From contig CP136067.1 of NCBI GenBank assembly GCA_032622095.1, forward strand, positions 55,407,899-55,471,898: a stretch of 64,000 bases of DNA. Reading direction: 5' to 3'. Source of the DNA: Siphonodentalium dalli (taxonomy: Eukaryota > Mollusca > Scaphopoda > Gadilida > Siphonodentaliidae). Numbering within the stretch: the first letter of the stretch is position 1; each line of letters opens with the position of its first letter. Under the pieces are notes generated by a model that saw only the letters and a program-made list of their open reading frames with translations, was not told the DNA's origin and did no database searches. Below, piece after piece: positions 22,169 through 63,493 of this stretch. The position numbers and the translations under genes are program-made.

Positions 22169-22197
22169 CCCTCTCTCTCTCTCTTTATATATATATA
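22169..22197. repeat. (CT)n(TA)n microsatellite at array edge
   Basis: A CT run followed by a TA run ends at the A directly before the CTAG of the array. The far edge of the array (29110-29175) also borders CT and TA runs. Confidence 0.85.
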
Positions 22198-22930
22198 CTA
22201 GAAGGTGACCCGACTTCGTCCCGGCTATTCAAAAACCAAATTTCAAGTCGATTGCTCCACCCGTTTCCTAGATCTGGTCTGCGCATGCGCGAAGCTGGTG
22301 TCGCACGGGTTCGGCGACCCGATAAAATTCGTATCCGGGGCAAGATACATTCACATACCAAATTTCAAGTCGATAGCTACACCCGTACCGAGATATATAG
22401 CCCAATGTCATTTGCGGATACCTCGGCCGGTGATGAGTTAACGCGACATCGGCCGGCAAGAGTTAACGCGAACACGTCACGATATGTTGATGGCGTAATA
22501 TATTTTTTTACGCAATGATTTTCGATGAGCGAAGCATGATCCTGTGTTCTTCCCGATAATTAAGGTAGAAACTTTAAACGTATACAGGCGTGTGATACAT
22601 CATTGGAAAGGTGAAACGCCACAGATTCTAACCGTGCAAATTATATGACTGGCAATTTATTATTCGCGCTATATCGAATCGATTTGTGAGCACCGAACTG
22701 AAATATATTAGCGCAAAACGGCGTAAAAACAGATTTGACCTCGGCACGTGAAAAGTTGACCTCGGATCTGAAAATCAATATGCCTATGTTCGTCTCCGGC
22801 CGAAAATACATCCAAATACCAAGTTTCATCGAAATTGGCTTAGTCGTTTTTGAGTCCATCGATTTCAAACACACACACAAACACACACACACACAAACAC
22901 ATACACAGATCTTTCAAAATATATAATAGA
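22198..22930 (-). mobile_element. Helitron-like array unit D1
   Basis: First of eight D-type units in a head-to-tail array. The minus-strand start is TCTATTATATATTTTGAAAG (22930). The end is a GC hairpin close to CCCGGACGAAGTCGGG, then TCACCTT and CTAG at 22198-22201. D1 is the most diverged unit on this edge: it has (CA)-rich 5' sequence, GGGTTCGGCGACC in place of GTGCTCGGCGACC, and differences in the middle third. Confidence 0.8.
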
Positions 22931-23662
22931 CTAGAAGGTGACCCGACTTCGTCCGGGCTATTAAAAAACCAAATTTCAAGTCGATTGCTCCACCCGTTTC
23001 CTAGATCTGGTCTGCGCATGCGCGAAGCTGGTGTCGCACGTGCTCGGCGACCCGATAAAATTCGTATCCGGGGCAAGATACATTCACATACCAAATTTCA
23101 AGTCGATAGCTACACCCGTTTCCGAGATATATAGCCCAATGTCATTTGCGGATACCTCGGCCGGTGATGAGTTAACGCGACACAGTCAAATGCATCGGCA
23201 GGGTGAGAGTTAACGTAATCTAACTTTATGACCTCTGACGACGTCATAGAAGTTACGCAGTGATTTTATCCTGATAAAAGATCCCCGTACCACTTGTACC
23301 TAATAATTGAGGCAGATAACTAAAACGGATACATACATATTATATATCGTTGGAAAGATGAAGCCACACAGATTCTAACCGTGCAAATTATATGACTGGC
23401 AATTTATTATTCGCGCTATATCGAATCGATTTGTGAGCACCGAACTGAAATATATTAGCGCAAAAACGGCGTAAAAATAGATTTGACCTCCGCACGTGAA
23501 AAGTTGACCTCGCACGGACAAATAAATATGCCTATGTTCGTCTCCGGCCGAAAACACATCCAAATACCAAATTTCATCGAAATTGGCTTAGTCGTTTTGG
23601 AGTCCATCGATTTCAAACACACAAACAAACACATACACAGATCTTTCAAAATATATAATAGA
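22931..23662 (-). mobile_element. Helitron-like array unit D2 (732 bp)
   Basis: Representative D unit. From 3' to 5' in its own orientation it has: CTAG/hairpin terminus; a 150-bp block with GCGCATGCGC and GATAAAATTCGTATCCGGGG; a GATGAGTTAACGCGACA block; a TGACGACGTCATAG block; TTATTATTCGCGCTATATCG; and a TTCATCGAAATTGGCTTAG block near the CACA/TGTG-rich 5' end. The 60-127-codon frames on both strands repeat in every unit and are not genes. Confidence 0.82.
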
Positions 23663-24394
23663 CTAGAAGGTGACCCGACTTCGTCCGGGCTATTAAAAAA
23701 CCAAATTTCATGTCGATTGCTCCACCCGTTTCCTAGATCTGGTCTGCGCATGCGCGAAGCTGGTGTCGCACGTGCTCGGCGACCCGATAAAATTCGTATC
23801 CGGGGCAAGATACATTCACATACCAAATTTCAAGTCGATAGCTACACCCGTTTCCGAGATATATAGCCCAATGTCATTTGCGGATACCTCGGCCGGTGAT
23901 GAGTTAACGCGACACAGTCAAATGCATCGGCAGGGTGAGAGTTAACGTAATCTAACTTTATGACCTCTGACGACGTCATAGAAGTTACGCAGTGATTTTA
24001 TCCTGATAAAAGATCCCCGTACCACTTGTACCTAATAATTGAGGCAGATAACTAAAACGGATACATACATATTATATATCGTTGGAAAGATGAAGCCACA
24101 CAGATTCTAACCGTGCAAATTATATGACTGGCAATTTATTATTCGCGCTATATCGAATCGATTTGTGAGCACCGAACTGAAATATATTAGCGCAAAAACG
24201 GCGTAAAAATAGATTTGACCTCCGCACGTGAAAAGTTGACCTCGCACGGACAAATAAATATGCCTATGTTCGTCTCCGGCCGAAAACACATCCAAATACC
24301 AAATTTCATCGAAATTGGCTTAGTCGTTTTGGAGTCCATCGATTTCAAACACACAAACAAACACATACACAGATCTTTCAAAATATATAATAGA
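23663..24394 (-). mobile_element. Helitron-like array unit D3 (732 bp)
   Basis: Same length as D2 and nearly identical. I noticed essentially one change (TTTCATGTCGATTG for TTTCAAGTCGATTG). Its 5' end TCTATTATAT abuts the CTAG of the foreign unit E. Confidence 0.82.
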
Positions 24395-25443
24395 CTAGCA
24401 GGTTAGCCCGCCACTGGCGGCATTCGTCCCATGGCTTTGTTCGAAAAAGCAATTGCAACAGGTTCCGAGACACTTGTGCTGCATTTGCACCAAATTTCGG
24501 CAGTAGTCAGAAACATGACAATTTATTTTTTGTTTTTCAATGAGTTAATTATTTTGTTTTTCAATGAGTTAATTGTGCTTTTTTAATTTTTTAATTGAAT
24601 TTTTTGGTTTTAAATTTTACCCGATTTTTTTTTGTTTTTCAATGAGTTAATTGTGCCTTTTTAATTTTGTTTTTCAATTTTACCCGAATTTTTTTTGTTA
24701 TTCAATGAACCCGTCCATGACACTTCCCGTATTTAGCAAGTTTGAGCTCAATCGGTTCGAGTCTATAAAGGACACACATATATATGACACTTCCCGTAGG
24801 TAGCAAGTTTGAGCTCAATCGGCATTGCCTGGAATTTCCCAGTAAATATTTAGCAAGTTTGAGCTCAATCGGTTCGAGTCTATAAAGGACACACTCATAT
24901 ATATTTGCCGACATTGCCGTGGGGATGCCCGTTCCTACACGCGTTTTCGATTCTATGAAGTACCCACATATATACACACATATTAATAGTAGATTGGCAG
25001 ATTCCAGTAGCTTTATAACGGTATATCTGGGGAGAAATCTGATGCTATATTCGTGATTATCTGGGATGATTTCGGTGTATACGAAGGTATATACTGTAAA
25101 AACAAAGCGCGCCATCCGTGCTCGCAGGGAATAAATTTCGAGCGATAACGTTTGCGTTCCCGTATAACTATGCAGATGCTAATAACGTTGAATGGGAAAC
25201 AGACGCTCTTTATAGAGATGCGTCAAAAACAAACGCTCATTAAATAATCACTTGATTAACCCACACCGTACCTTTGCGGTGATTTGAGATTGGAGAACGG
25301 GTGCTCTGAGCTTCTCTAAACCGCGACCACTGTCGTGTCGGTGGGATTTGACACTTACATAGGAAGTTTGAGCTCAATATGTACACGCGTTTTGGATTCT
25401 ATGAAGTACACACATACGGAAGTCTCAAAATATATAGTATAGA
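24395..25443 (-). mobile_element. Helitron-like unit E, different subfamily, inside the array
   Basis: A 1049-bp unit with its own ends: minus-strand start TCTATACTATATATTTTGAG and terminal hairpin CCGCCAGTGGCGG before GCTAACCTGCTAG. It has the same strand as the D units and is joined to D3 and D4 exactly at the unit boundaries. Its 5' 600 bp match the element at 50100-51470 (GAGCTCAAACTTCCTATGTA, CTCAGAGCACCCGTTCTCC, TTGACGCATCTCTATAAAGA). The 3' part is T-rich. No ORF of note. Confidence 0.8.
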
Positions 25444-26175
25444 CTAGAAGGTGACCCGACTTCGTCCGGGCTATTAAAAAACCAAATTTCAAGTCGATTG
25501 CTCCACCCGTTTCCTAGATCTGGTCTGCGCATGCGCGAAGCTGGTGTCGCACGTGCTCGGCGACCCGATAAAATTCGTATCCGGGGCAAGATACATTCAC
25601 ATACCAAATTTCAAGTCGATAGCTACACCCGTTTCCGAGATATATAGCCCAATGTCATTTGCGGATACCTCGGCCGGTGATGAGTTAACGCGACACAGTC
25701 AAATGCATCGGCAGGGTGAGAGTTAACGTAATCTAACTTTATGACCTCTGACGACGTCATAGAAGTTACGCAGTGATTTTATCCTGATAAAAGATCCCCG
25801 TACCACTTGTACCTAATAATTGAGGCAGATAACTAAAACGGATACATACATATTATATATCGTTGGAAAGATGAAGCCACACAGATTCTAACCGTGCAAA
25901 TTATATGACTGGCAATTTATTATTCGCGCTATATCGAATCGATTTGTGAGCACCGAACTGAAATATATTAGCGCAAAAACGGCGTAAAAATAGATTTGAC
26001 CTCCGCACGTGAAAAGTTGACCTCGCACGGACAAATAAATATGCCTATGTTCGTCTCCGGCCGAAAACACATCCAAATACCAAATTTCATCGAAATTGGC
26101 TTAGTCGTTTTGGAGTCCATCGATTTCAAACACACAAACAAACACATACACAGATCTTTCAAAATATATAATAGA
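25444..26175 (-). mobile_element. Helitron-like array unit D4 (732 bp)
   Basis: Nearly identical to D2. Its CTAG directly follows unit E on the plus strand. Confidence 0.82.
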
Positions 26176-26907
26176 CTAGAAGGTGACCCGACTTCGTCCG
26201 GGCTATTAAAAAACCAAATTTCAAGTCGATTGCTCCACCCGTTTCCTAGATCTGGTCTGCGCATGCGCGAAGCTGGTGTCGCACGTGCTCGGCGACCCGA
26301 TAAAATTCGTATCCGGGGCAAGATACATTCACATACCAAATTTCAAGTCGATAGCTTCACCCGTTTCCGAGATATATAGCCCAATGTCATTTGCGGATAC
26401 CTCGGCCGGTGATGAGTTAACGCGACACAGTCAAATGCATCGGCAGGGTGAGAGTTAACGTAATCTAACTTTATGACCTCTGACGACGTCATAGAAGTTA
26501 CGCAGTGATTTTATCCTGATAAAAGATCCCCGTACCACTTGTACCTAATAATTGAGGCAGATAACTAAAACGGATACATACATATTATATATCGTTGGAA
26601 AGATGAAGCCACACAGATTCTAACCGTGCAAATTATATGACTGGCAATTTATTATTCGCGCTATATCGAATCGATTTGTGAGCACCGAACTGAAATATAT
26701 TAGCGCAAAAACGGCGTAAAAATAGATTTGACCTCCGCACGTGAAAAGTTGACCTCGCACGGACAAATAAATATGCCTATGTTCGTCTCCGGCCGAAAAC
26801 ACATCCAAATACCAAATTTCATCGAAATTGGCTTAGTCGTTTTGGAGTCCATCGATTTCAAACACACAAACAAACACATACACAGATCTTTCAAAATATA
26901 TAATAGA
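26176..26907 (-). mobile_element. Helitron-like array unit D5 (732 bp)
   Basis: Nearly identical to D4; one noticed change is AGCTTCACCC for AGCTACACCC. Confidence 0.82.
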
Positions 26908-27639
26908 CTAGAAGGTGACCCGACTTCGTCCGGGCTATTAAAAAACCAAATTTCAAGTCGATTGCTCCACCCGTTTTCTAGATCTGGTCTGCGCATGCGC
27001 GAAGCTGGTGTCGCACGTGCTCGGCGACCCGATAAAATTCGTATCCGGGGCAAGATACATTCACATACCAAATTTCAAGTCGATAGCTACACCCGTTTCC
27101 GAGATATATAGCCCAATGTCATTTGCGGATACCTCGGCCGGTGATGAGTTAACGCGACACAGTCAAATGCATCGGCAGGGTGAGAGTTAACGTAATCTAA
27201 CTTTATGACCTCTGACGACGTCATAGAAGTTACGCAGTGATTTTATCCTGATAAAAGATCCCCGTACCACTTGTACCTAATAATTGAGGCAGATAACTAA
27301 AACGGATACATACATATTATATATCGTTGGAAAGATGAAGCCACACAGATTCTAACCGTGCAAATTATATGACTGGCAATTTATTATTCGCGCTATATCG
27401 AATCGATTTGTGAGCACCGAACTGAAATATATTAGCGCAAAAACGGCGTAAAAATAGATTTGACCTCCGCACGTGAAAAGTTGACCTCGCACGGACAAAT
27501 AAATATGCCTATGTTCGTCTCCGGCCGAAAACACATCCAAATACCAAATTTCATCGAAATTGGCTTAGTCGTTTTGGAGTCCATCGATTTCAAACACACA
27601 AACAAACACATACACAGATCTTTCAAAATATATAATAGA
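26908..27639 (-). mobile_element. Helitron-like array unit D6 (732 bp)
   Basis: Nearly identical to D4/D5; one noticed change is CCGTTTTCTAG for CCGTTTCCTAG. Confidence 0.82.
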
Positions 27640-28357
27640 CTAGAAGGTGACCCGACTTCGTCCGGGCTATTCAAAAACCAAATTTCAAGTCGATTGCTCC
27701 ACCCGTTTCCTAGATCTGGTCTGCCCATGCGCGAAGCTGGTGTCGCACGTGCTCGGCGACCCGATAAAATTCGTATCCGGGGCAAGATACATTCACATAC
27801 CAAATTTCAAGTCGATAGCTACACCCGTTTCCGAGATATATAGTTGCGGATACCTCGGCCGGTGATGAGTTAACGCGACACAGTCAAATGCATCGGCAGG
27901 GTGAGAGTTAACGTAATCTAACTTTATGACCTCTGACGACGTCATAGAATTTACGCATTGATTTTATCCTGATAAAAGATCGCACCACTTGTACCTAATA
28001 ATTGAGGCAGATAACTATAACGGATACATACATATTATATATCGTTGGAAAGATGAAGCCACACAGATTCTAACCGTGCAAATTATATGACTGGCAATTT
28101 ATTATTCGCGCTATATCGTATCGATTTGTGAGCACCGAACTGAAATATATTAGCGCAAAACGGCGTAAAAACAGATTTGACCTCCGCACGTGAAAAGTTG
28201 ACCTCGCACGGACAAATAAATATGCCTATGTTCGTCTCCGGCCGATAATACCCTAAAATACCAAATTTCATCGAAATTGGCTTGGTCGTTTTCGAGTCCA
28301 TCGATTTCAAACACACAAACAAACACATACACAGATCTTTCAAAAATATATAATAGA
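27640..28357 (-). mobile_element. Helitron-like array unit D7 (718 bp)
   Basis: A diverging unit near the right edge. It lacks a few bases in CCCAATGTCATT and CCCCGTACCAC, and the conserved palindrome is broken (CTGCCCATGCGC). It uses TATTCAAAAACC like D1 and D8, not TATTAAAAAACC like the central units. Confidence 0.8.
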
Positions 28358-29109
28358 CTAGAAGGTGACCCGACTTCGTCCGGGCTATTCAAAAACCAAA
28401 TTTCAAGTCGATTGCTCCACCCGTTTCCTAGATCTGGTCTGCGCATGCGCGAAGCTGGTGTCGCACGTGCTCGGCGACCCGATAAAATTCGTATCCGGGG
28501 CAAGATACATTCACATACCAAATTTCAAGTCGATAGCTACACCCGTTTCCGAGATATATAGCCCAATGTCATTTGCGGATACCTCGGCCGGTGATGAGTT
28601 AACGCGACACAGTCAAATGCATCGGCAGGGTGAGAGTTAACGTGATCTAACTGTATGACCTCTGACGACGTCATAGAAGTTACGCATTGATTTTATCCTG
28701 ATAAAAGATCGCACCACTTCTCCCTAATAATTGAGGCAGATAACTAAAACGGATACATACATATTATATATCGTTGGAAAGATGAAGCCACACAGATTCT
28801 AACCGTGCAAATTATATGACTGGCAATTTATTATTCGCGCTATATCGAATCGATTTGTGAGCACCGAACTGAAATATATTAGCGCAAAACGGCGTAAAAA
28901 TAGATTTGACCTCCGCACGTGAAAAGTTGACCTCGCACGGACAAATAAATATGCCTATGTTCGTCTCCGGCCGAAAATATCCTAAAATACCAAATTTCAT
29001 TGAAATTGGCATAGTCGTTTTCGAGTCCATCGATTTCAAACACACAAACTTACACACAAACTTACACACAAACTTACACATACACAGATCTTTCAAAATA
29101 TATAATAGA
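28358..29109 (-). mobile_element. Helitron-like array unit D8 (752 bp), 5' edge of array
   Basis: Last unit. It has three copies of ACACAAACTT near its 5' end, which explains the extra length. The minus-strand 5' end TCTATTATATATT is preceded by host A (T at 29110 on the plus strand), as expected for an A|T insertion of the whole array. Confidence 0.8.

Positions 29110-29175
<66 letters not shown>
29110..29175. repeat. (CT)n(TA)n microsatellite
   Basis: A CT dinucleotide run followed by a TA run separates the large array from the next Helitron-like element. Confidence 0.95.
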
Positions 29176-29176
<1 letters not shown>

Positions 29177-30195
29177 TAGCAGGTGGACCCGACTTCGTCC
29201 GGGCTGTTTCCCCTTTGCTTTCCGGCGAATTGCGCGACTTGACCTTGAATTGTACATGTTGAAGGTCAGGTGGAGTCACGATTTGACCCGTCCAAAACAC
29301 TGCCCGAACAAAAGTACCCGACAAAAGTACCCATCGAAATCCATCCGCTTTTACCCGATTTGACCTTGAATTCATCATTTTGAAGGTCAAGGTCAGGTCG
29401 GGGTCACGATTTGACCTGTCCAAAACACCCAGTGGACAAAAGTAACCCTATGTATAAAATTTCGTCGAAATACCATCAAAATTGGCGATTTGACCTTGAA
29501 TTGACCCGATTTCAAGGTCCAGGTCACGTCACACGGGCAAATGAATATGTTTATGAGACTCCCCATACGAAAGTATCCCCACATACCAAGTTTCATCGAA
29601 ATCCCGTGATATTCGGGCGTTTGACCTGAAATGACCCGATTTCAAGGTCAATGTCACGTCGCACGGGCAAATGAATATGCTTATGAGACTCCCCATACGA
29701 AAGTACCCCCACATACCAAGTTTCATCGAAATCCCGTGATATTCGGGGTTTGACCTTGAAATGACCCGATTTCAAGGTCAAGGTCACGTCGCACGGGCAA
29801 ATTAATAGGCTTATGCCACTCCCCGGCCGAGAATACACCCACATACCAATTTTCATCGAAATCCCGTGATATTCGGGCGTTTGACCTTGAAATGACCCGA
29901 TTTCAAGGTCAATGTCACGTCGCACGGGCAAATTAATAGGCTTATGCCACTCCCCGGTCGAGAATACACCCACATACCAAGTTTCATCGAAATCCCTTGA
30001 TATTCGTGCGTTTGACCTTGAAATGACCCGATTTCAAGGTCAAGGTCACGTCGCACGGGCAAATCAATAGGCCTATGTCACTCCTCGGCCGAAAATACCC
30101 CCACATACCAAGTTTCATCGAAATCGACTCGGCCGTTTTCGAGTCCATCGATTACTGACAGACACACAGACAGATCTTCCAAAATATATAATAGA
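29176..30195 (-). mobile_element. Helitron-like element F with ~130-bp internal repeats
   Basis: Minus-strand element from TCTATTATATATTTTGGAAG (30195) to CTAG (29176-29179), flanked by A (29175) and T (30196). About five repeats of 130-131 bp occupy 29460-30170. Each has TTTCATCGAAATCCCGTGAT, TGACCTTGAAATGACCCG and TTTCAAGGTCAAGGTCACG. TCAAGGTCA occurs several times. Repeat frames on the minus strand are not genes. Confidence 0.8.
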
Positions 30196-31360: not shown

Positions 31361-31498
31361 TATTATATATATTTAATCTTTACTATTGATTATTCGTGAT
31401 ATTTTGCATTGCGCGAGTATTTAAAGCTTTCTTTTTGGGGCCGACCGGTGAAGGTAAAAAAAAAATTCCACTACTTTGTCAAGATTGTTTTTCCACGG

Positions 31499-32261
31499 AT
31501 GTCACTTGGTAAACTACGTAAATACATTGGAGGGGAAACGGAACCACCCAAAGGTTCACAACTTATAACACCAGTATTGCTATCTGACAGCAAGGGCAGA
31601 TACTTGAAGAAAGAATTGCCGTGCAGGGACGAATTAACAAAGGTACAAAAGTCAATCACATGGGAATGTGAAAAGGGGAGAAGAACAGGAAATACAACTT
31701 CCTGGATAAAAAACAACATTCGCCGGCTAGCTAAGCCCGACAAAGAAACAACTGAACGACAGATATGGCTCTATGTATGGCTCGGGACTTGCGACCTAAC
31801 AACAATTAATGGTAAATACATCTCTCTTACCTCGCACGACAACTTCGCAGCCGACAGAGTAATAAGAAAACTTGATGAAATAGCGTGCACCACCAAAAAA
31901 CGCAGAGGCAATCAAGTGACGATACTAGAAGTGCCTGTCTACTCCATCACCTCATTAAACAAAAGCAGACACCACAAAAACCCTTCAGAATTTGAAGAAC
32001 AAGACACAAAACTGGTTGAGCAGATCCACTATCTAAACGGGAAAATAAGAGAACTAAATCTGAGTGGCCATACACACTCCCCGGAGTACCAGTGACCTAA
32101 AGAGGCATTCAATTGTGAAAAAGAAGAACTCCCAACTGCACAGGCGTTATTACTATTTCAACTTGTATACCGATGGTATCCACCCGAACAATACCCTAGG
32201 AAAATACTGGCTTAAGAAGATCACCGAACAAATGAAGACAGACTGCTGGGAGGGGAAATAG
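31499..32261 (+). pseudogene. LINE ORF1, SGNH-hydrolase-like, frameshifted
   Basis: The first ATG is at 31499 (M-S-L-G-K-L-R-K-Y). Block I of an SGNH esterase is visible as V-L-L-S-D-S-K-G-R-Y. The frame closes at 32095. The last block, Y-T-D-G-I-H-P-N with the expected Asp and His, lies in a different frame at 32064-32261, which ends L-K-K-I-T-E-Q-M. A single frameshift between about 32064 and 32095 explains this. Esterase-type ORF1 proteins are known from CR1-clade LINEs, where they are thought to help RNP or membrane association. ORF1 and ORF2 are six bases apart at the nearest open-frame edges. Confidence 0.72.
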
Positions 32262-32326
32262 AAGACGTGCCAGGGACTGAATATTGTGCAAGTCAGTGCG
32301 AGTTTTTCTGCGCTATCCTTGCTACA

Positions 32327-33979
32327 ATGTTCCAGTTTGTGCCATACCTCATTCTCCCCTTCATCTTTGCAAATACCATCCTATCATCAAAGTTATGGTA
32401 CAGTCAGCAACTAACACACAATATGTTGCAGTCCAACGTGTCATACACAGGTCGGAGACCAATCAGCCTCCCTATCAAAAGCAGAAGACTGACAAACATC
32501 ATACTCCTCCTGTCAATGTCTGGAGACGTCCACCCCCATCCGGGACCACCCACGAAACCACAAGACCTCTATCCATGTGGCTTCTGTGAAATCCCAGTCA
32601 CCTGGAGCACTAGCGGTGTATGCTGTGATGAATGCAGCCTTTGGTACCATAAAGAATGCCTAGAAATGTCACTGACCAACTACTCGCGGATAACTAAACC
32701 AAACATCACATGGCTTTGTTGTAAATGCAACACAGCGAACATCTCATCATTTACATTTCATAGCTACGAGTTGTCCGGCTCAAATTACTACGAACCATTG
32801 TCAGAAGATTACATCTCCATTGGATCATCACTGAACAGCATGTCATTTAGCCCACTGAAAGCAAGCAGTCCAAACACAACCAACTCAAGCTACTCTGCTA
32901 ATAAATCAAGAAGAAGAGAAGCTTCAAACACCAGCCTAAATAATTCAAACGTCTTCAACATCCAAGAAAAAGAAAACCTCAGAATATTGACCATCAACTG
33001 TAGAAGTGTATATGACAAAAGATCAGAACTATGCGCAGTACTAACATACACAAAACCAGATATCATCTGTGGAACCGAATCTTGGCTACGCGGAATAAGA
33101 CCCGGCCAGAAACCACAGCCAAACACCATCAAATCAAGTGAAGTCTTCCCATCTGGATATGAGATCTACAGAAATGACAGAAGTACAAAAGGCGGCGGAG
33201 TGTTCATAATGGTTCGAAATGATATCAAATCGATAGAAATGGTTGATTACATCACAGACTGCGAACTGGAGTGGGTCAAAATAAAAATGCACCAACGGAA
33301 AGACATGCTGATAGGGAATTTATACATGCCACACAGAAACCTAAATGACATCAAACAACTAGAAGAGTCACTGAAAAAGATCCCCAAGAGCAAGAATATC
33401 CTATTGACCGGTGATTTCAACTGCCCCTCTATCAACCGGGAAACACTTACGGTCAATTGTAATGCCAACGATACAGAAGTTCAACAGCAGCTCGTCAACA
33501 TCACAAATTCACCAGACCAGCATCTCTCCCAATTGCAAATGAAACCAACACGAGAGAATAACAACCTTGATCTTGTATTTGTTTCAACTCCATCACTAGT
33601 GAAGACCGTCGACACAATACCAGGCATCTCGGATCATAACATTGTGGTCACAGACATGGAGATCAAACCGCAATACCAGCCATCAATACCGAGAAAATCC
33701 TACAGCTTCAATAGAGCAAATTGGGGAGCCATAAACTCTGATATCAAACAGATGAACAACGCCATCATCACCGAATCACAAAATGACGCAGATATAGAAA
33801 CACTCTGGACGATATTCAAAGCCATCCACAACACTGTTGACAAAAATGTTCCATCTAAAATGATCAGGAAAAATCGGAGTGCACCATGGATCAACCATCG
33901 AGTTAAGCGAATGTTGAGGAAGAAACAACGAATGTACATCCGGGCCAAAAGACCGGCAAATGGGACAACTATAAACTAA
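32327..33979 (+). pseudogene. LINE ORF2, N-terminal part: PHD finger and APE endonuclease
   Basis: The frame is open from 32267, but the first ATG is at 32327, giving 550 codons before an early stop. Residues about 66-74 are G-D-V-H-P-H-P-G-P, resembling the 2A-like motif that LINEs of several marine animals carry, but with His where Asn is required. A PHD finger follows (C84, C87, C100, C103, H108, C111, C131, C134). After an S/N-rich linker comes the APE-type endonuclease: N-C-R-S (N224), T-E-S-W (E251), G-D-F-N (D363, N365), L-D-L-V-F, and S-D-H (D436, H437). It would nick target DNA for target-primed reverse transcription. The true frame continues into the RT after the A-run at 33946-33949, where one base appears to be lost. 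Confidence 0.88.
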
Positions 33980-35841
33980 TACAAAGAGAATGCAAAAAGA
34001 TGATTAGACACGAAGAGTGGAGACACATAAACAAAAACATCACTGAAGGCGTAACCAACAATAACAGCAAACCATTTTGGAGCTACGTCAAGTCAAAAAA
34101 GAACGACTCAATTGGCGTCGCTCCACTGAAGATAAAGGGGAAATTAGAAACCAGCTCAGAAGGGAAAGCCAACATCCTATTACAACAATTCAGATCAGTC
34201 TTCACGCACGAACCACCAGGAGAAGAAATGCCAACAATGAACACCAAACCCACGGATGACATAGAATAATTAACCATCGACAAAGAAGGGGTAGAGAGAT
34301 TATTGAAACAGGTTAAAACACACAAAGCACCAGGCCCTGAAAACCTGCCGAACCTAGTTCTCAAAGAATGTGCAACAGAGCTGGCAAACCCACTAACAAA
34401 AATATTCAACCGCTCATTGAAGACAGGCACACTACCTCTGGATTGGAGATCAGCCAACATATCCAGCATATATAAGAAAGGTGACAAACATAATGCTGAG
34501 AACTACCGCCCCGTCTCGCTGACCTCCGTTCCGTGCAAGCTGCTATAACATATCATATACAGCCACATCATTAATCACCTAGAAGAACACAAAATCCTAA
34601 CTTCACTCAACCATGGTTTCCGGTCAAAGTACTCTTGCGTAACTCAACTAGCAGTAACAACTGATGACATATTACAGTCATTCGACAACGGCAAACAAGT
34701 TGATGTTGCCATCCTGGACTTTTCTAAGGCATTTGATACGGTGCCTCACCGTAAATTGCTTCACAAACTGCAACATTATGGCATCAGAGGACAGCTGCAC
34801 AACTGGATGAGCTCCTTCCTACAAAATCGGAAAATGAAGGTAGTAATCGACGGGAAACTATCAGAGGAGGTACATGTAGAATCTGGAGTACCACAAGGAG
34901 TAGTGCTGGGCCCGTTGCTATTCCTATGCCATATCAACGACCTACCAAATGACATCGCCTCTAAAATCCGCTTCTTTGCAGACGACTGCCTATTATACCA
35001 AGAAATATCATCGTTTAAGGATCACCTCAAAATGCAGAAAGATTTAAACACACTGAACGATTGGGCCAACACCTGGGGGATGAAGTTTAACACCAAGAAA
35101 TGCCATATCCTATCAATCAAGAAAAAATCCAATTACTACTACACACTAAACAACGAGGTACTCGCAGAGGTCAACGAACATCCATACCTCGGAGTGACAC
35201 TCACAATTAATATGGATTGGAGTTCCCAGATCAACAACATCTCGAGGAAAGCATCATACACGCTTAGCTTCCTCCAACGAAACCTTAAGCATTGCGCAGA
35301 AGACCTACGCAAGCTAAGCTACATATCGCTAGTAAGATCAAGTATGGAATATGCAGATATAACATGGGACCCATACGAAAAACGAAACATCGATAAACTT
35401 GAGGAAATCCAAAGAAGAGCAGCTCGTTTCATCAAAAAAGACTATAGAAGCAGATTTGAGGGTGCGGTCACAAACATGCTAATTGACCTAAAATTCCAAC
35501 CACTCGAGACCAGGAGGAAAACCAACAGGTTGACATTCTTGCACAAAGTAGTGGACGGGGCCTTCCCAGCCATTCCCCTACAAAAGTATGCAAACTACTC
35601 TCTAAAACGAGTTCGTAAGAAAAACAAACACCTGGAGGGATACGAAACATCCAAATCCCCTCAGCATCTCATACGAAACCACGAAAGATGCTTCGAACTC
35701 CCGCAAACAATAAACACGGAAGAATACAAACATTCAGTGTTTATTAGAGCAAAGATCGATTGGAACCAGCTGGACGGGAAATTCTTAGATAGTCTGGACT
35801 CTACAACATCATTCCAGGAGTATCTACAGGAAAACATCTAG
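33950..35841 (+). pseudogene. LINE ORF2, C-terminal part: reverse transcriptase
   Basis: Continues ORF2 in the next frame: K-T-G-K-W-D-N-Y-K joins the endonuclease end, and the RT follows. Stops at 34267 and 34546 interrupt it; the second falls in C-K-L-L-stop-H-I, where a Glu codon is usual. From 34549 the frame is open to 35841. RT motifs: N-Y-R-P-V-S-L, N-H-G-F-R-S, L-D-F-S-K-A-F-D (34714-34737), S-G-V-P-Q-G-V-V-L-G-P, and catalytic F-A-D-D (34975-34986). The protein ends after a W-N-Q-L-D region and lacks RNase H. The pattern is a recent but dead copy. Confidence 0.9.
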
Positions 35842-41505: not shown

Positions 41506-42054
41506 CTAGCCGATGAGCCCGACGTTGTCCGGGCTATTCAAAAAACAATAGCTCTACCCAGTCCGACGTTGTCCGGGCTATTCAAAAACCAAATTTCAAG
41601 TCGATAGCTCTACCCGTTTCCGAGATCTGGTCTGCGCATGCGCGAAGCTGGCGTCGCACGGGCTCGGCGACCCGAAAATATTCGTATCCGGGGCAAGATA
41701 CATTCACATACCAAATTTCAAGTCGATAGCTCCACCCGTTTCCGAGATCTGGTCTGCGCATGCGCGAAGCTGGCGTCGCACGGGCTCGGCGACCCGATAA
41801 AATTCGTATCCGGGGCAAGATACATTCACATAGCAAATTTCAAGTCGATAGCTCCACCCGTTTCCGAGATCTCGTCTGCGCATGCGCGAAGCGGGCGCCA
41901 CACGGGCTCGTCAATACGACATCGTCCACCGCCTGGTCAAACTACACACACGTACCAAGTTTCGTCCCGATCGGTCGAGAATCGTAGATTTGTATAAATG
42001 ACAAACAAACATACAAACAGACAAATAATATATATGACAAATATATATATGAGA
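41506..42054 (-). mobile_element. Helitron-like array unit H2
   Basis: 549 bp with three 122-bp repeats. Its terminal GACGTTGTCCGGGCTATTC segment is duplicated (41520-41585), so it has two potential 3' hairpins. Head-to-tail with H1 and H3. Confidence 0.75.
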
Positions 42055-42546
42055 CTAGCCGATGAGCCGGACGTTGTCTGGGCTATTCAAAATCCAAATT
42101 TCAAGTCGATAGCTATTCAAAAACCAAATTTCAAGTCGATAGCTCCACCCGTTTCCGAGATCTGGTCTGCGCATGCGCGAAGCTGGCGTCGCACGGGGTC
42201 GGCGACCCGATAAAATTCGTATCCGGGCCAATACGACAACGACCGTGTCCGTGGGATTTTACCCCTAGATAGGAAGTTTGGTCTCGATCGGTGGAGAATC
42301 GTAGATTTGTATAAATGACAGACAGACAAACAGATAGATTGTATCAAAATATATAAGAGAGATATGTAAATTAGATAGATTGTATCAAAATATATAAGAG
42401 AGATATGTAAATTATCTACACACCATTACTGGTGTTTGTCAAAGTTTAGTGGGGTATATCAATACTCATTCACGATCATATCATTGAGGTCCGGAGGATG
42501 TGGGTTATCTCTCGAATACAGATTGTATCAAAATATATAGGAGAGA
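42055..42546 (-). mobile_element. Helitron-like array unit H3
   Basis: One diverged repeat, then two possible 5' ends: TCTCTCTTATATATTTTGAT at 42362, with a 41-bp tandem duplication of the end, or TCTCTCCTATATATTTTGAT at 42546. The segment 42404-42525 does not match other units and may be host or foreign DNA caught between duplicated 5' ends. Confidence 0.6.
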
Positions 42547-43147
42547 CTAGCCGTTGAGCCCGACATTGTCCGGGCTATTCAAAAACCAAATTTCAAGTCG
42601 ATAGCTCCACCCGTTTCCGAGATCTGGTCTGCGCATGCGCGAAGCTGGCGTCGCACGGGCTCGGCGACCCGATATAATTCGTATCCGGAGCAAGATACAT
42701 TCACATAGCAAATTTCAAGTCGATAGCTCCACCCGTTTCCGAGATCTCGTCTGCGCATGCGCGAAGCGGCACGGGCTCGCAAATACGACAACGTCAACCG
42801 CCCGGTCAAACTACACGCACGTACCAAGTTTCGTCCCGATCGGTCGAGAATCGTAGATTTGTATAAATGACAAACAAACATACAGACAATCATGATAATT
42901 CGTATCCGGGGCAAGATACATTCACATAGCAAATTTCAAGTCGATAGCTCCACCCGTTTCCGAGATCTCGTCTGCGCATGCGCGAAGCGGGCGCCGCACG
43001 GGCTCGTCAATACGACAACGTCCACCGCCTGGTCAAACTACACACACGTACCAAGTTTCGTCCCGATCGGTCGAGAATCGTAGATTTGTATAAATGACAA
43101 ACAAACATACAAACAGACAAACAGAGGTCTTCAAAATATATATGAGA
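42547..43147 (-). mobile_element. Helitron-like array unit H4
   Basis: A compound unit. A complete short unit reaches CATACAGACAATCATGATA, and then an internally truncated second copy starts within the 122-bp repeat (ATTCGTATCCGGGGC at 42897). Ends TCTCATATATATTTTGAAGA at 43147. Confidence 0.7.
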
Positions 43148-43538
43148 CCAGCCGATGAGCCCGACGTTGTCCGGGCTATTCAAAAACCAAATTTCAAGTC
43201 GATAGCTCCACCCGTTTCCGAGATCTGGTCTGCGCATGCGCGAAGCTGGCGTCGCACGGGCTCGGCGACCCGATATAATTCGTATCCGGTGCAAGATACA
43301 TTCACATACCAAATTTCAAGTCGATAGCTCCACCGTTTCCGAGATCTCGTCTGCGCATGCGCGAAGCGGGCGCAGCACGGGCTCGCCAATACGACAACGT
43401 CCACCGCCCGGCCAAACTACACGCACGTACCAAGTTTCGTCCCGATCGGTCGAGAATCGTAGATTTGTATAAATGACAAACAAATATACAGACAAACATA
43501 CAGACAAACATACAGAGGTCTTCAAAATATATATGAGA
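43148..43538 (-). mobile_element. Helitron-like array unit H5, 5' edge
   Basis: 391 bp. Its terminal CTAG is mutated to CTGG on its own strand (CCAG at 43148-43151 on the plus strand). The minus-strand 5' end at 43538 is preceded by A (T at 43539), matching an A|T insertion of the whole H array. Confidence 0.75.
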
Positions 43539-44456: not shown

Positions 44457-46565
44457 TCAGCCGAGACCATCGGGTGTAGATCGTAGAACGTTGACAGCCT
44501 TGCTCGCATGCAGAAGGAATGTTGCGGTCGAGTCGACGATGAAATCCAGAGGAAAATCCGATATATTTAATATGTTACATCTTGAACCTAAAAGCATGGC
44601 ACACAAGTCGTCAACGGTAAGCGAAGCCATGAACATGTATATTGGAATTCCGAATCTGTTCGTTATGAAATCCCAGTATATGTTTCGCGCATGAATCAAT
44701 ATGCCCGATTGACACGAGAACATGATATGCGTTATCTCACTGTTAAAGCGAACAGAGCAAAGGTTACAGAGAGTATTGTTGTTGAATGCTGTCCTATTCA
44801 GTAACCGGCACAAGTTGACATATTTGGATGATAAATGTGCTTGGGCGTGTACTCGAGTCCATATTGACCAACAGTCTAATGGATTATGGTGAACTTTTGA
44901 TAGAACAATTAAATTTGGATCAGAATGTACAGCACAACGCCATGAGTTAATATAATAATTTTGCACAGCTGTTTTAGCAATCCTCTTCCACACTTCTTTT
45001 GCTGGGAACATACCTTCATCGAGATATTCTAGGAGATAACATTTTAGATTGTATTTTGCGAGAATTTGAAATATATCATGAACATAGCCGGAAGATGATC
45101 TTCTAAACAGACCTTGCTGGTGCGCTTTGAGAAGGAACAGTCTCAGAGGAGTTTGGTGGTGAAGTGGTAAATGGATAAGGTTTCCAAGAAAGCATAATTT
45201 TCGGGTATAAATTTCCTGTTCAATGGGCATCAATCCAAGTAATCCAAGGGACAGTCTAGTGCTTGCCCTTTTCGGTAGTGACTGGATACTCTTGATACAT
45301 GTTCGGAGTGATCTTTCCATTATCATGAGACCAGAGGTATATTGCATGGGTAAGAGTTCGCATCCGTATAATGCTTTCTGCAGAACAACACATTTTAGGA
45401 TCTGCCCCAGTGAAACAGGAGTCAAAGATGCAGTTAACAGTCTCTTAGCAATTGAGAAAAATGTTTTGCGCATTTTCAGAGAAACTAAGTGTCCATGTGA
45501 TTTTCCTGTAGCGAATTTATCTTGTACAATTCCTAAGTGCGTGCTCTCTGTTTTCTCTGGAATGGTGTTCGGGCCTAAATGCCATGTTCTGTGAGCTTTG
45601 GAGTGGCCACTTTTTGACTCGTTAAATACAATAATGTTGCTTTTAGTACAAGAGAAAGAAAATCGCCACCTGGTGCTGTATTGATAACACATGTCGATTA
45701 AACTGTCGAGGCCAATTTTAGAGAGGGATATAAGTGTTATATCGTCCGCCGTAGTAGGTGCCGCGCATGAAATATTATTTATGGAGAGTCCCATTCGTGT
45801 GGTCGTTAGGATTTCAAGAAGGTCATTTATGTACACTAAGTAGCAAAAAGGTGAGAGGATACCTCCTTGCCTTGTTCCTTGGCTAATCACAAAGGAGTTT
45901 GACAGACATCCGTTATAACGAACTTGGCTTGTGATGTCACTGTATATGCACTGTAACATGCAAATGGCTTTTCTTGAAAAACCAAGGCGAAGAAACTTGA
46001 ATAACAGTCCGGTGTGCCATACTTTGTCGAAAGCTTTTTTAGAGTCTAAAAATGCAACATAAAGTTTGGAACTGTTTTCATGTGCGTACGATATGGCCTC
46101 TTGAAGGACGAAAGTTGTCATGTTACAGCCTACCCTAGATTGAAATCCATTCTGAAGGTCATGTGGGAATGCAGCCAGTATGTCACTATCCATGAATCGT
46201 TTGAGAAGTATGGCTTCAAATATTTTGTATAACACGGGTAGTAATGATATCGCTCGGTAACTGTCCGGGAGAGTTGCAGGTTTAGGTTCTCCCTTGTATA
46301 ATGGCACGATAATACCCGCTTTTAACGTCTCTGGAATATATTCAAAATCAAGAAATGCGTTGAACAACTTGCACAAACATAATAACAAGAGATCCGTTCC
46401 ATGTCGCACGTGTTCGTTGGTTATACCATCATGACCGCTTGCTTTGCCAGATTTTAGTTTCCTTATAACATTTTCAATTTCAGCCGAAGTTATGGGAATT
46501 CCAAACAAAGGACATGTTTTATGCCCGCTTTTCAAACATTCAGATACAGCAATATTCAGATACAT
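44457..46565 (-). CDS. LINE reverse transcriptase, 702 codons, 5'-truncated element
   Basis: Uninterrupted frame from a true ATG. RT motifs: S-G-K-A-S-G-H-D-G-I (39-48), V-P-L-Y-K-G (87-92), S-Y-R-A-I-S-L (102-108), Q-N-G-F-Q (138-142), F-L-D-S-K-K-A-F-D (172-180), R-Q-G-G-I-L-S-P (232-239) and A-D-D (273-275). The usual aromatic before A-D-D is Thr here. A C-x2-C-x9-H-x4-C knuckle (C600, C603, H613, C618) is like those at the C-terminus of L1-type and related LINE proteins. No endonuclease lies upstream, because the element is cut near the ATG, where a 26-bp duplication (GTATCTGAATGTATCTGAAT) disrupts the frame. The clade is uncertain; it is clearly distinct from the CR1-like LINE at 31.4 kb. 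It is probably not functional alone. Confidence 0.88.
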   Translation of the reverse strand: MYLNIAVSECLKSGHKTCPLFGIPITSAEIENVIRKLKSGKASGHDGITNEHVRHGTDLLLLCLCKLFNAFLDFEYIPETLKAGIIVPLYKGEPKPATLPDSYRAISLLPVLYKIFEAILLKRFMDSDILAAFPHDLQNGFQSRVGCNMTTFVLQEAISYAHENSSKLYVAFLDSKKAFDKVWHTGLLFKFLRLGFSRKAICMLQCIYSDITSQVRYNGCLSNSFVISQGTRQGGILSPFCYLVYINDLLEILTTTRMGLSINNISCAAPTTADDITLISLSKIGLDSLIDMCYQYSTRWRFSFSCTKSNIIVFNESKSGHSKAHRTWHLGPNTIPEKTESTHLGIVQDKFATGKSHGHLVSLKMRKTFFSIAKRLLTASLTPVSLGQILKCVVLQKALYGCELLPMQYTSGLMIMERSLRTCIKSIQSLPKRASTRLSLGLLGLMPIEQEIYTRKLCFLGNLIHLPLHHQTPLRLFLLKAHQQGLFRRSSSGYVHDIFQILAKYNLKCYLLEYLDEGMFPAKEVWKRIAKTAVQNYYINSWRCAVHSDPNLIVLSKVHHNPLDCWSIWTRVHAQAHLSSKYVNLCRLLNRTAFNNNTLCNLCSVRFNSEITHIMFSCQSGILIHARNIYWDFITNRFGIPIYMFMASLTVDDLCAMLLGSRCNILNISDFPLDFIVDSTATFLLHASKAVNVLRSTPDGLG

Positions 46566-50099: not shown

Positions 50100-51470
50100 T
50101 CTATACTATATATTTTGAGACTTCGTATATATATATGTATACATATTATGTACTTCATAGAATCCAAAACGCGTGTAAAGATTGAGCTCAAACTTCCTAT
50201 GTAAGTGTCAAATTCCACCGACACGACCGTGGTCGCTGTTTAGAGAAGCTCAGAGCACCCGTTCTCCAATCTCAAATCACCGCAAAGGCACGGCGGGGGT
50301 TAATCAAGTGATTATTTAATGAGCGTTAGTTTTTGACGCATCTCTATAAAGAGCGTCTGTTTCCCATTCAACGTTATTCGCATCTGCAGAGTTATACGGG
50401 AACGCAAACGTTATCGCTCGAAATTTATTCCCTGCGAGCACGGATGGCGCGCTCTTTTTTCACATTATATACCTTCGGTATATATTCGGTATATACCGAA
50501 ATCATCCCAGATAATCACGAATATAGCATCAGATTTCTCCCCAGATATACCGTTATAAAGCTACTGGAATCTGCCAATCTACGGGAAATTCCAGGGAATG
50601 CCGATTGAGCTCAAACTTGCTACCTACGGGAAGTGTCATATATATGAGTGTGTCCTTTATAGACTCTAACCGATTGAGCTCAAACTTGCTAAATAAGAAA
50701 ATAGCCCCCAAGCCGTAAATATCAACAACAACGATATTACTAAATACACGTTTTCGGCAATGTGAGAGTTTTCGGGGAGCCGTGATGACAACAACAACGA
50801 CCCGAAGACAGATTTCCCGACGGGAAGCTTTTGTTTTAAATTCAATGCAATGTTATCGTAGAGAGATTTCGCGAAACAAAGAATGCGTTGTCTGTCGTTC
50901 CTAGGAAGGGGGGGGGGGGGGATTTCTACGGGTAAATTTTTCCGCCAGAAACAAAAAAATTAAATAAAACAATTTACAATTTAATTAAAACAATTTAAAA
51001 TTAAAAAAAATTAACAATAAAAAAACAATTCAGAAACAAAATATATTAAATTTAAAAAACATTAAATTAGGAAATTGAAATGGTGTGGGGAAAAATTCCC
51101 AAATGTTGTACTTGAATTGTTATTGGTCCATGGTGAGACCATTATTTCTCTTGATTAAAATGGCAGAATTAACTCATTGAAAAACAAAAAGTCATGTTTC
51201 TGACAAAGCCATGGGACAAATGCCGCCAGTGGCGGGCTAACCTAAAAATTAAATAAAACAATTTACAATTTAATTAAAACAATTTAAAATTAAAAAAAAT
51301 TAACAATAAAAAAACAATTCAGAAACAAAATATATTAAATTTAAAAAACATTAAATTCATATTCAAAAATAAAAAACAAAAATAAATAAAAACAAAATAA
51401 TTACAAAAATGTCATGTTTCTGAAACAAAGCCATGGGACGAATGCCACCAGTGGCGGGCTAACCTGCTAG
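50100..51470 (+). mobile_element. Helitron-like element I (E subfamily) with duplicated 3' end
   Basis: Starts TCTATACTATATATTTTGAG after A (50099). Ends with the hairpin region CCACCAGTGGCGG, GCTAACCT and GCTAG. The first 600 bp match unit E of the big array in opposite orientation. Near the 3' end a segment is duplicated: 50946-51243 and 51244-51470 share a long A-rich block and GCCATGGGAC...GGCGGGCTAACCT. The inner copy of the terminus lacks GCTAG. Confidence 0.8.
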
Positions 51471-62640: not shown

Positions 62641-63493
62641 TAGTTAGACCAGTTATCCGGGTTATCATCTGTAGTTAGACCAGTTATCCGGGTTATCATC
62701 TGTAGTTAGACCAGTTATCCGGGTTATCATCTGTAGTTAGACCAGTTATCCGGGTTATCATCTGGGAGTTAGACCAGTTATCCGGGTTATCATCTGGGAG
62801 TTAGACCAGTTATCCGGGTTATCATCTGGGAGTTAGACCAGTTATCCGGGTTATCATCTGTAGTTAGACCAGTTATCCGGGTTATCATCTGTAGTTAGGA
62901 CCAGTTATCCGGGTTATCATCTGTAGTTAGACCAGTTATCCGGGTTATCATCTGTAGTTAGACCAGTTATCCGGGTTATCATCTGTAGTTAGACCAGTTA
63001 TCCGGGTTATCATCTGGGAGTTAGACCAGTTATCCGGGTTATCATCTGGGAGTTAGACCAGTTATCCGGGTTATCATCTGTAGTTCGGACCAGTTATCCG
63101 GGTTATCATCTGTAGTTAGACCAGTTATCCGGGTTATCATCTGTAGTTAGACCAGTTATCCGGGGTATCATCTGTAGTTAGACCAGTTATCCGGGTTATT
63201 ATCTGGGAGTTAGACCAGTTATCCGGGTTATCATCTGGGAGTTAGACCAGTTATCCGGGTTATCATCTGGGAGTTAGACCAGTTATCCGGGTTATCATCT
63301 GGGAGTTAGACCAGTTATCCGGGTTATCATCTGGGAGTTAGACCAGTTATCCGGGTTATCATCTGTAGTTAGGACCAGTTATCCGGGTTATCATCTGTAG
63401 TTAGACCAGTTATCCGGGTTATCATCTGGGAGTTAGACCAGTTATCCGGGTTATCATCTGGGAGTTAGACCAGTTATCCGGGTTATCATCTGG
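62641..63493. repeat. 31/32-bp minisatellite, 27 units
   Basis: Unit core GACCAGTTATCCGGGTTATC followed by ATCTG. Two unit types alternate in blocks: 31-bp units beginning TAGTTA and 32-bp units beginning GGAGTTA. Reading left to right the blocks are 4 T, 3 G, 5 T, 2 G, 4 T, 5 G, 2 T, 2 G. Three T units carry a small change (TAGGACC twice, TCGGACC once). Otherwise the units are almost identical, so the array is young. Confidence 0.95.

Follow-up and report, generated by a model that had tools for sequence, protein, structure and literature searches.

Introduction

Head-to-tail arrays of Helitrons are cited as known in plants, bats and silkworm (PMC5876387, PMC4067079), and directly adjoining Helitrons of unlike kinds are mentioned for bat and maize (PMC4067079). 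Such arrays have been attributed to bypassed termination or to rolling-circle copying (PMC4067079, PMC5876387), and tandem Helitrons are quoted in favor of rolling-circle transposition with missed termination. Here, we describe an array of nine Helitron-like units at positions 22198-29109 of a 64,000-nucleotide stretch from the scaphopod Siphonodentalium dalli (C7:55407899-55471898; the whole stretch is called the window hereafter). In contrast to the tandem arrays of plants, bats and silkworm, the mixed families, unequal divergence and split 5′ ends found here point to repeated insertion. We consider it likely that the array was built by repeated Helitron insertion at the 5′ ends of resident Helitrons, with a target that resembles the front end of the incoming element. 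If many tandem Helitrons arise at resident 5′ ends, this argument from them would be weaker, and array structure would report target choice instead.

Among the closest described elements is Helitron1/Helibat of bats (Helraiser), which has the same 5′-TC and CTAG-3′ termini as our units, a palindrome that likewise stops 11 nt short of the 3′ end, an A|T insertion site and a Rep-helicase partner (PMC4778049). Helraiser targets are AT-rich mainly on the 3′ side (PMC4778049); in S. dalli, by comparison, the 3′-side preference is for a TATATA-type run that matches the element’s own 5′ end, and among the listed ends a sizeable proportion abut other units. The available portion of a silkworm Helitron study (PMC3789558) does not contain the words tandem or array. 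For FoHeli in Fusarium and a three-copy tandem in Metarhizium, the choice between insertion into another element’s 5′ end and rolling-circle copying was left undecided, and one insertion is reported to lie 2 bp in front of a 5′ end (PMC5148889). Those are single cases of non-canonical Helitrons, whereas the elements of the present genome have canonical ends and can be judged by a motif, a divergence test and hundreds of ends listed. A rule by which the target resembles the element’s own 5′ end was not met in the searches of the open literature or in the papers cited here; subscription papers lay mostly outside this coverage, so its novelty is unproven. In IS200/IS605 elements (IS608), one enzyme recognises both target and end. 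The likeness to our case would be one of shared logic in end and target recognition, known here from sequence alone.

Structure of the array

The nine units tile 22198-29109 exactly (6,912 bp), head to tail and with zero spacer; eight belong to one family (D) and one to another (F). All of them run 5′→3′ on the minus strand, each starting with TC and finishing with CTAG. Along the plus strand, the order is D1 (22198-22930, 733 bp), D2 (22931-23662, 732 bp), D3 (23663-24394, 732 bp), F (24395-25443, 1,049 bp, TCTATACTATATATTTTGAG...CTAACCTGCTAG), D4 (25444-26175, 732 bp), D5 (26176-26907, 732 bp), D6 (26908-27639, 732 bp), D7 (27640-28357, 718 bp) and D8 (28358-29109, 752 bp), so that D1 is the 3′-most unit and D8 the 5′-most. 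The plus-strand junctions read AATAGA|CTAG in seven of eight cases and TATAGA|CTAG in the remaining one, at 25444; on the minus strand this is CTAG|TCTAT. The whole array is framed once, by A at 22197 and T at 29110 of the plus strand, i.e., by T after its 3′ end and A before its 5′ end. Pairwise, D2-D6 differ by 0-2 bases, with no mismatch between D2 and D4 and one or two between D3 and the others. Compared with D5, the edge units are diverged: 12 mismatches and 6 gaps in D8, 17 and 4 in D7, 68 and 12 in D1. An earlier note, made from the letters of the window, had described the spacer-free array of eight D units (718-752 bp, five of them at 732 bp) plus one foreign unit, its single A/T frame and its near-identical center between diverged edges, and each of these descriptions holds.

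The same array is recovered on C7 when the assembly (2.23 Gb, nine contigs) is searched, and the search for other arrays with the same junction, which the note had proposed, was productive. A search of a phage collection gave no match. Exact D-type 3′ ends (23 bp) occur 12,504 times and exact 46-bp D|D junctions 981 times, while the reversed controls gave zero in both cases; with 981 exact occurrences versus none for the control, the D|D join is not a chance feature. Patterns of 35 places yielded 11,201, 13,337 and 9,353 3′ ends for D, F’s family and a third type, E, in the order D, E, F. It could be argued that collapsed or misjoined repeats created the array during assembly, given that it is a high-copy repeat known from the assembly, whose sequence is also the sole source of the copy number. 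The identity of D2 with D4 makes it conceivable that the number of copies in the D runs is slightly off. However, most units carry differences of their own, four lengths besides 732 bp are present and the D|D join recurs exactly all those times, which makes an artefact very improbable as the explanation of the array.

Insertion sites and the target motif

Judged by their termini, the array units are non-autonomous Helitrons of the canonical kind (Helitron1). Besides the TC and CTAG ends of all nine, the A|T insertion site is found around related ends elsewhere; these flank statistics cover the first 100 matches of each pattern search, all on contig C1. T follows 296 of 300 3′ ends (100/100 D, 98/100 E and 98/100 F), and A precedes 49/51 D and 37/42 F 5′ ends that have no Helitron 3′ end in front (47/49 and 36/41 after the re-sorting of three rows described below). 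There is no target-site duplication in the split cases presented in the next section: the halves TCTA and TACTATAT rebuild the F 5′ end with no base repeated. Palindromes are present near the D and F 3′ ends, and their folding is no better than that of shuffled sequences (z −0.28, −0.48). At the 3′ terminus of D1 (22198-22237), the palindrome of D5, which ends 11 nt before the element end, is slightly changed; the equivalent D5 end folds weakly. By eye, none of the 300 3′ flanks starts with an inverted Helitron 3′ end.

By rules written after the flanks had been seen, we distinguished four classes of flank: plain genomic sequence, (TA)n, Helitron 5′ ends, and 5′ ends that are split or scarred. 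Among the plain genomic 3′ flanks, 97 of 109 (94 of them distinct sequences) contain ATATA or TATAT in bases 2-12 (53/56 D, 25/28 E and 19/25 F). As background, 303 of the 5,798 A|T sites in three portions of the window carry it (5.2%). On the opposite, 5′ side of D units, the motif occurs in 9 of 38 outer flanks, these being the ones that could be typed among 40 rows with an outer A. The motif, therefore, lies mainly 3′ of the insertion, i.e., on the side that would meet the 5′ end of a resident. D, E and F each hold a motif of this type in their own 5′ ends, within the same span, and the 5′ terminus of D8 (TCTATTATATATTTTGAAAGATC, 29087-29109) fits as well, with T followed by TATAT within about ten bases. 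Because Helitron 5′ ends match the target motif, it is reasonable to propose that resident Helitrons serve as landing sites.

Resident Helitrons as neighbors and probable targets

Helitron 5′ ends, whether exact, split or scarred, follow 29/100 D, 65/100 E and 75/100 F 3′ ends. Looking in the other direction, the sequence before 100 D 5′ ends (of 3,092) is a D end in 25 cases, an E end in 20, an F end in 4, a TCTA scar in 9, an outer A in 40 and something else in 2. The corresponding figures for 100 F 5′ ends (of 4,246) are 58 Helitron ends (F in 48 cases, D in 6, E in 3 and another kind in 1), a TCTA scar in 17 cases, an outer A in 20 and something else in 5. These neighbor counts predate a second look, in which two D rows and one F row proved to be altered Helitron ends: among the D rows, one TCTA scar is a D-type 3′ end minus a base and one outer A is an altered F end, and in the F row the outer A is likewise an altered F end. 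Joins between different families cannot arise through circular copying of one element. Two of the 100 D 5′ ends (C1:51691209 and C1:27898106) are in head-to-head orientation to the 5′ end of another Helitron, from which a short TA spacer separates them.

A second kind of neighbor is the split 5′ end. F starts with TCTATACTATATATTTTGAG, and units are often placed within such a start, at TCTA|TACTATAT. All three D units listed with TACTATATATTTTGAGAC after their 3′ end have TCTA directly before them (C1:8.978, 9.796 and 10.736 Mb). The same pairing brackets longer arrays: in L009 and L021, two of the fetched loci, TCTA precedes the array and TACTATAT comes after it. We read these splits as insertions into the 5′ end of a resident, apparently without duplication of target bases. 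L050 was left out of the scar test, with one D 3′ end recognised there, and L020, whose 5′ flank ends in TCTA within another Helitron’s end, was excluded from the scar counts.

Divergence of the units

Searches for other copies of D2-D6, D7, D8 and F scored 39-40 candidates each; the relatives fetched were the four best for D7 and for D8 and five for F, namely its six best copies, whether full or partial, minus one partial copy. D2-D6 are only 1-2 substitutions away from their best copies on C9, C8, C5 and C2 (L001-L004), and those copies are mutually identical. Unequal exchange, which the earlier note had invoked to homogenise the center, is therefore not needed to explain the central identity. 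The other units are further from their relatives: the best other copies of F among the candidates scored are 19-21 substitutions plus gaps away (the best one 147 bits under the self match), the four best copies of D7 are 5-11 substitutions and 1-4 gaps off, those of D8 are 3-5 substitutions off, and the nearest fetched unit to D1, the most diverged and probably the oldest, is 33 mismatches away.

Private substitutions number 11/1,049 in F (13 when the relative L062 is included), 5/718 in D7 and 3/752 in D8. In the 3,660 bases of D2-D6 there are 3 when counted against their own common form, 4 when a shared change is counted once and 8 when it is counted for each unit. Under the assumptions of a clock and of surviving source copies, F exceeds D2-D6 at p of 1.2e-5, 3.7e-5 and 8e-4 for 3, 4 and 8 events, as tested with 11 F substitutions and rechecked with both 11 and 13. 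The excess of D7, probably an older unit, is less firm than that of F (p of 0.004, 0.008 and 0.048, same order and assumptions), and that of D8 is not significant (0.07, 0.10 and 0.29).

These results bear on the origin that the earlier note had favored, in which replication ran past the 3′ terminator and the resulting concatemer, inserted in a single event, was later homogenised by unequal exchange. The exact CTAG|TC joins and the single A/T frame are what such a read-through predicts, a variant common to D2-D6 (see below) would fit it, and precise head-to-tail circles were described for Helraiser (PMC4778049). A concatemer, however, has one template and one insertion time, whereas F comes from a different family and exceeds D2-D6 in private substitutions. 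Joins of mixed families and split 5′ ends also occur often among the matches listed, and homogenisation is superfluous given the identical D copies found on other contigs. As the main cause of the array, read-through is thus unlikely; the part of the idea that survives is that short concatemers are plausible for D2-D6.

The units of the array probably arrived at separate times, at resident 5′ ends, because the young D2 and D3 sit between F and the diverged D1, and the young D4-D6 between D7 and F. When D2-D6 are set aside, D1, F, D7 and D8 run from more to less diverged toward the 5′ end. Growth at the front predicts this order, which would be seen by chance in 1 of 24 cases. An age gradient across L001-L035 by distance to the nearest relative was also considered and dropped, given that these loci were chosen by similarity to D5 and are unevenly sampled.

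Proposed growth of the array

By their flanks, Helitrons of this kind insert at A|T with a TATATA-like run within a few bases on the 3′ side. The 5′ ends of the elements themselves (TCTATTATATAT, TCTCATATATAT and TCTATACTATAT) are such sites, so residents probably act as landing pads. An incoming copy would join ahead of the resident 5′ end and supply its own, renewing the pad; both the common orientation and the zero spacing would follow. A single transposase recognition step may serve both the cutting of the element’s own 5′ end and the choice of target. In the window, the array would have grown 3′→5′, probably in the order D1, F, D7, D8. A recent burst of D copies would have entered later, D2 and D3 at the 5′ end of D1 and D4-D6 at that of F, and each of these two runs may be a short rolling-circle concatemer.

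Dispersed and apparently locally amplified arrays

We compared the nearest relatives of D-like units within and between loci, using a unit finder that failed to pick up D7 and some units whose ends are altered, and that merged two units in L032. L001-L035 hold 67 D-like units, 52 of them in multi-unit loci, and most have their nearest relative at another locus. Adding L039-L041 (85 units in total) raises same-locus nearest relatives to 20.1, versus 2.8 by shuffle. L039 consists of four identical 913-bp units, L041 of two recurring unit types with most copies identical, and the units of L040 show 7-15 differences from their nearest relatives. The longest stretch that we read, on C1 at 161.33 Mb (C1:161326500-161353200, L036-L038), has 35 Helitron ends in 26.7 kb, spaced 719-737 bp apart, and a G-less junction variant (CTA|TCTATT) recurs there every two to five units; it resembles a young satellite. 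L039-L041 and this stretch were picked for regular junction spacing rather than at random, and of them L039, L041 and the 161.33-Mb array look locally amplified. A two-unit dimer moving as one was proposed for L030 and L031, which carry the same array, and rejected: 1,200 bp of their 3′ flanks are 100% identical, which indicates a larger duplication.

Such arrays raise the question of whether the window array, too, is a product of satellite-type amplification, i.e., one or a few tandem units expanded after insertion by unequal crossing-over or slippage. The regular spacing and recurring junction variant at 161.33 Mb, the identical units of L039 and the recurring types of L041 all argue that this process operates in the genome. 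In the window, however, F is present once, with young D units on either side, and unequal exchange between these D units should have led to its duplication or loss; amplification alone also yields no first zero-spacer dimer from unlike flanks. We regard it as improbable as the origin of the window array. A contribution of local amplification, in addition to insertion, is indicated by the variant shared by D2-D6 and the homogeneous arrays elsewhere.

Repeated insertion at resident 5′ ends, which we prefer, has several observations to its disadvantage. The weakest step is the entry of the D burst at the F/D1 and D7/F borders, which requires G rather than A on the 5′ side (CTAG|TC); G is rare there at outer flanks. 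D2-D6 all carry T at unit position 700, a base also found in 5/30 near copies and 19/116 D-like units elsewhere; this exceeds independent draws (p 0.0008 against the near copies, for one site spotted after looking). A single lineage probably supplied both D blocks, through repeated insertion from one source or through short concatemers, and, with one lineage indicated by the shared variant, short concatemers or local re-copying become plausible for D2-D6. Neighbors are biased toward the same family: 48 of the 58 Helitron ends before F, among the matches listed, are F. Even in L001-L035, same-locus nearest relatives (5.67) lie above the shuffle mean (1.79), though under the shuffle maximum (8.3 in 1,000). 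The locus L049, which contains the 10.736-Mb case, has six TCTA scars for three remainders, a surplus that may be due to slippage; exact scar bookkeeping, or the use of TCTA counts as a clock, is ruled out by it. As to the divergence test, the excess of D7 is marginal under the strictest count, and private changes are also present in the relatives of F (3-9) and of D7 (0-6), so the F excess is partly a family feature. Divergence can date the arrival of a unit only where its source copy is still present in the assembly; the 39-40 candidates scored in each search set the range over which such a copy was sought.

A probable autonomous partner and a possible wider rule

At C1:114.62 Mb (L048), an 8,809-bp element shares the first 28 and last 29 bases of D5 and has exact CTAG|TC joins on both sides. 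Its coding sequence includes a Helitron_like_N Rep domain (E 9.5e-58) and, in a second frame, a PIF1 helicase (E 1.1e-65); in this copy, one stop lies between the two frames. We infer that an autonomous partner of this type moves the D units. Rep-domain matches number 151 genome-wide; at least 17 of them have open frames 1,600-1,700 aa long, and for some others the frame is longer. Around the same element (C1:114622548-114638548), Rep-coding Helitrons lie amid D-type junctions that recur at a distance of 9.67 kb, with two Rep domains 10.0 kb apart; one copy (L048) was read. On C2, two Rep domains with 1,650-aa open frames (141795020 and 141803591) lie 8.6 kb apart and are possibly tandem autonomous elements.

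A wider reading is conceivable, which we put forward tentatively and rate at somewhat below even chances. The 5′ terminus of a Helitron would be both the site that the transposase cleaves on leaving and a preferred target for an arriving copy, each insertion would renew the target, and the CTAG|TC join, equal to the circle junction, could be entered again; arrays would then build themselves into satellite-like DNA without read-through, and this may apply to all Helitrons. Insertion at resident 5′ ends, if many tandem Helitrons arise by it, would itself provide a simple, testable rule (a target like the element’s own 5′ end), account for mixed-family arrays and offer a route from transposon to satellite DNA. 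The present genome, which combines open Rep frames with exact ends in the tens of thousands, is suited to testing the rule.

Other features of the window

Just past the array, beyond a (TC)n(TA)n run, positions 29176-30195 are probably a further Helitron-like unit, framed separately by A and T. More Helitron-like units, of E type (CTAGCCGATGAGCC...) and with internal 122-bp repeats, lie at 41506-43538 and from 16506 onward. A second F-family unit is located at about 50102-51470, its CTAG end abutting the apparent 5′ end (TCTATATCTATATTTGC) of another Helitron. Long reading frames at 31400-35841 and 44457-46565 encode proteins that, judged by eye, are non-LTR retrotransposon-like. Finally, positions 62641-63492 form a minisatellite of 27 copies with a period of 32 bp and 96% matches.

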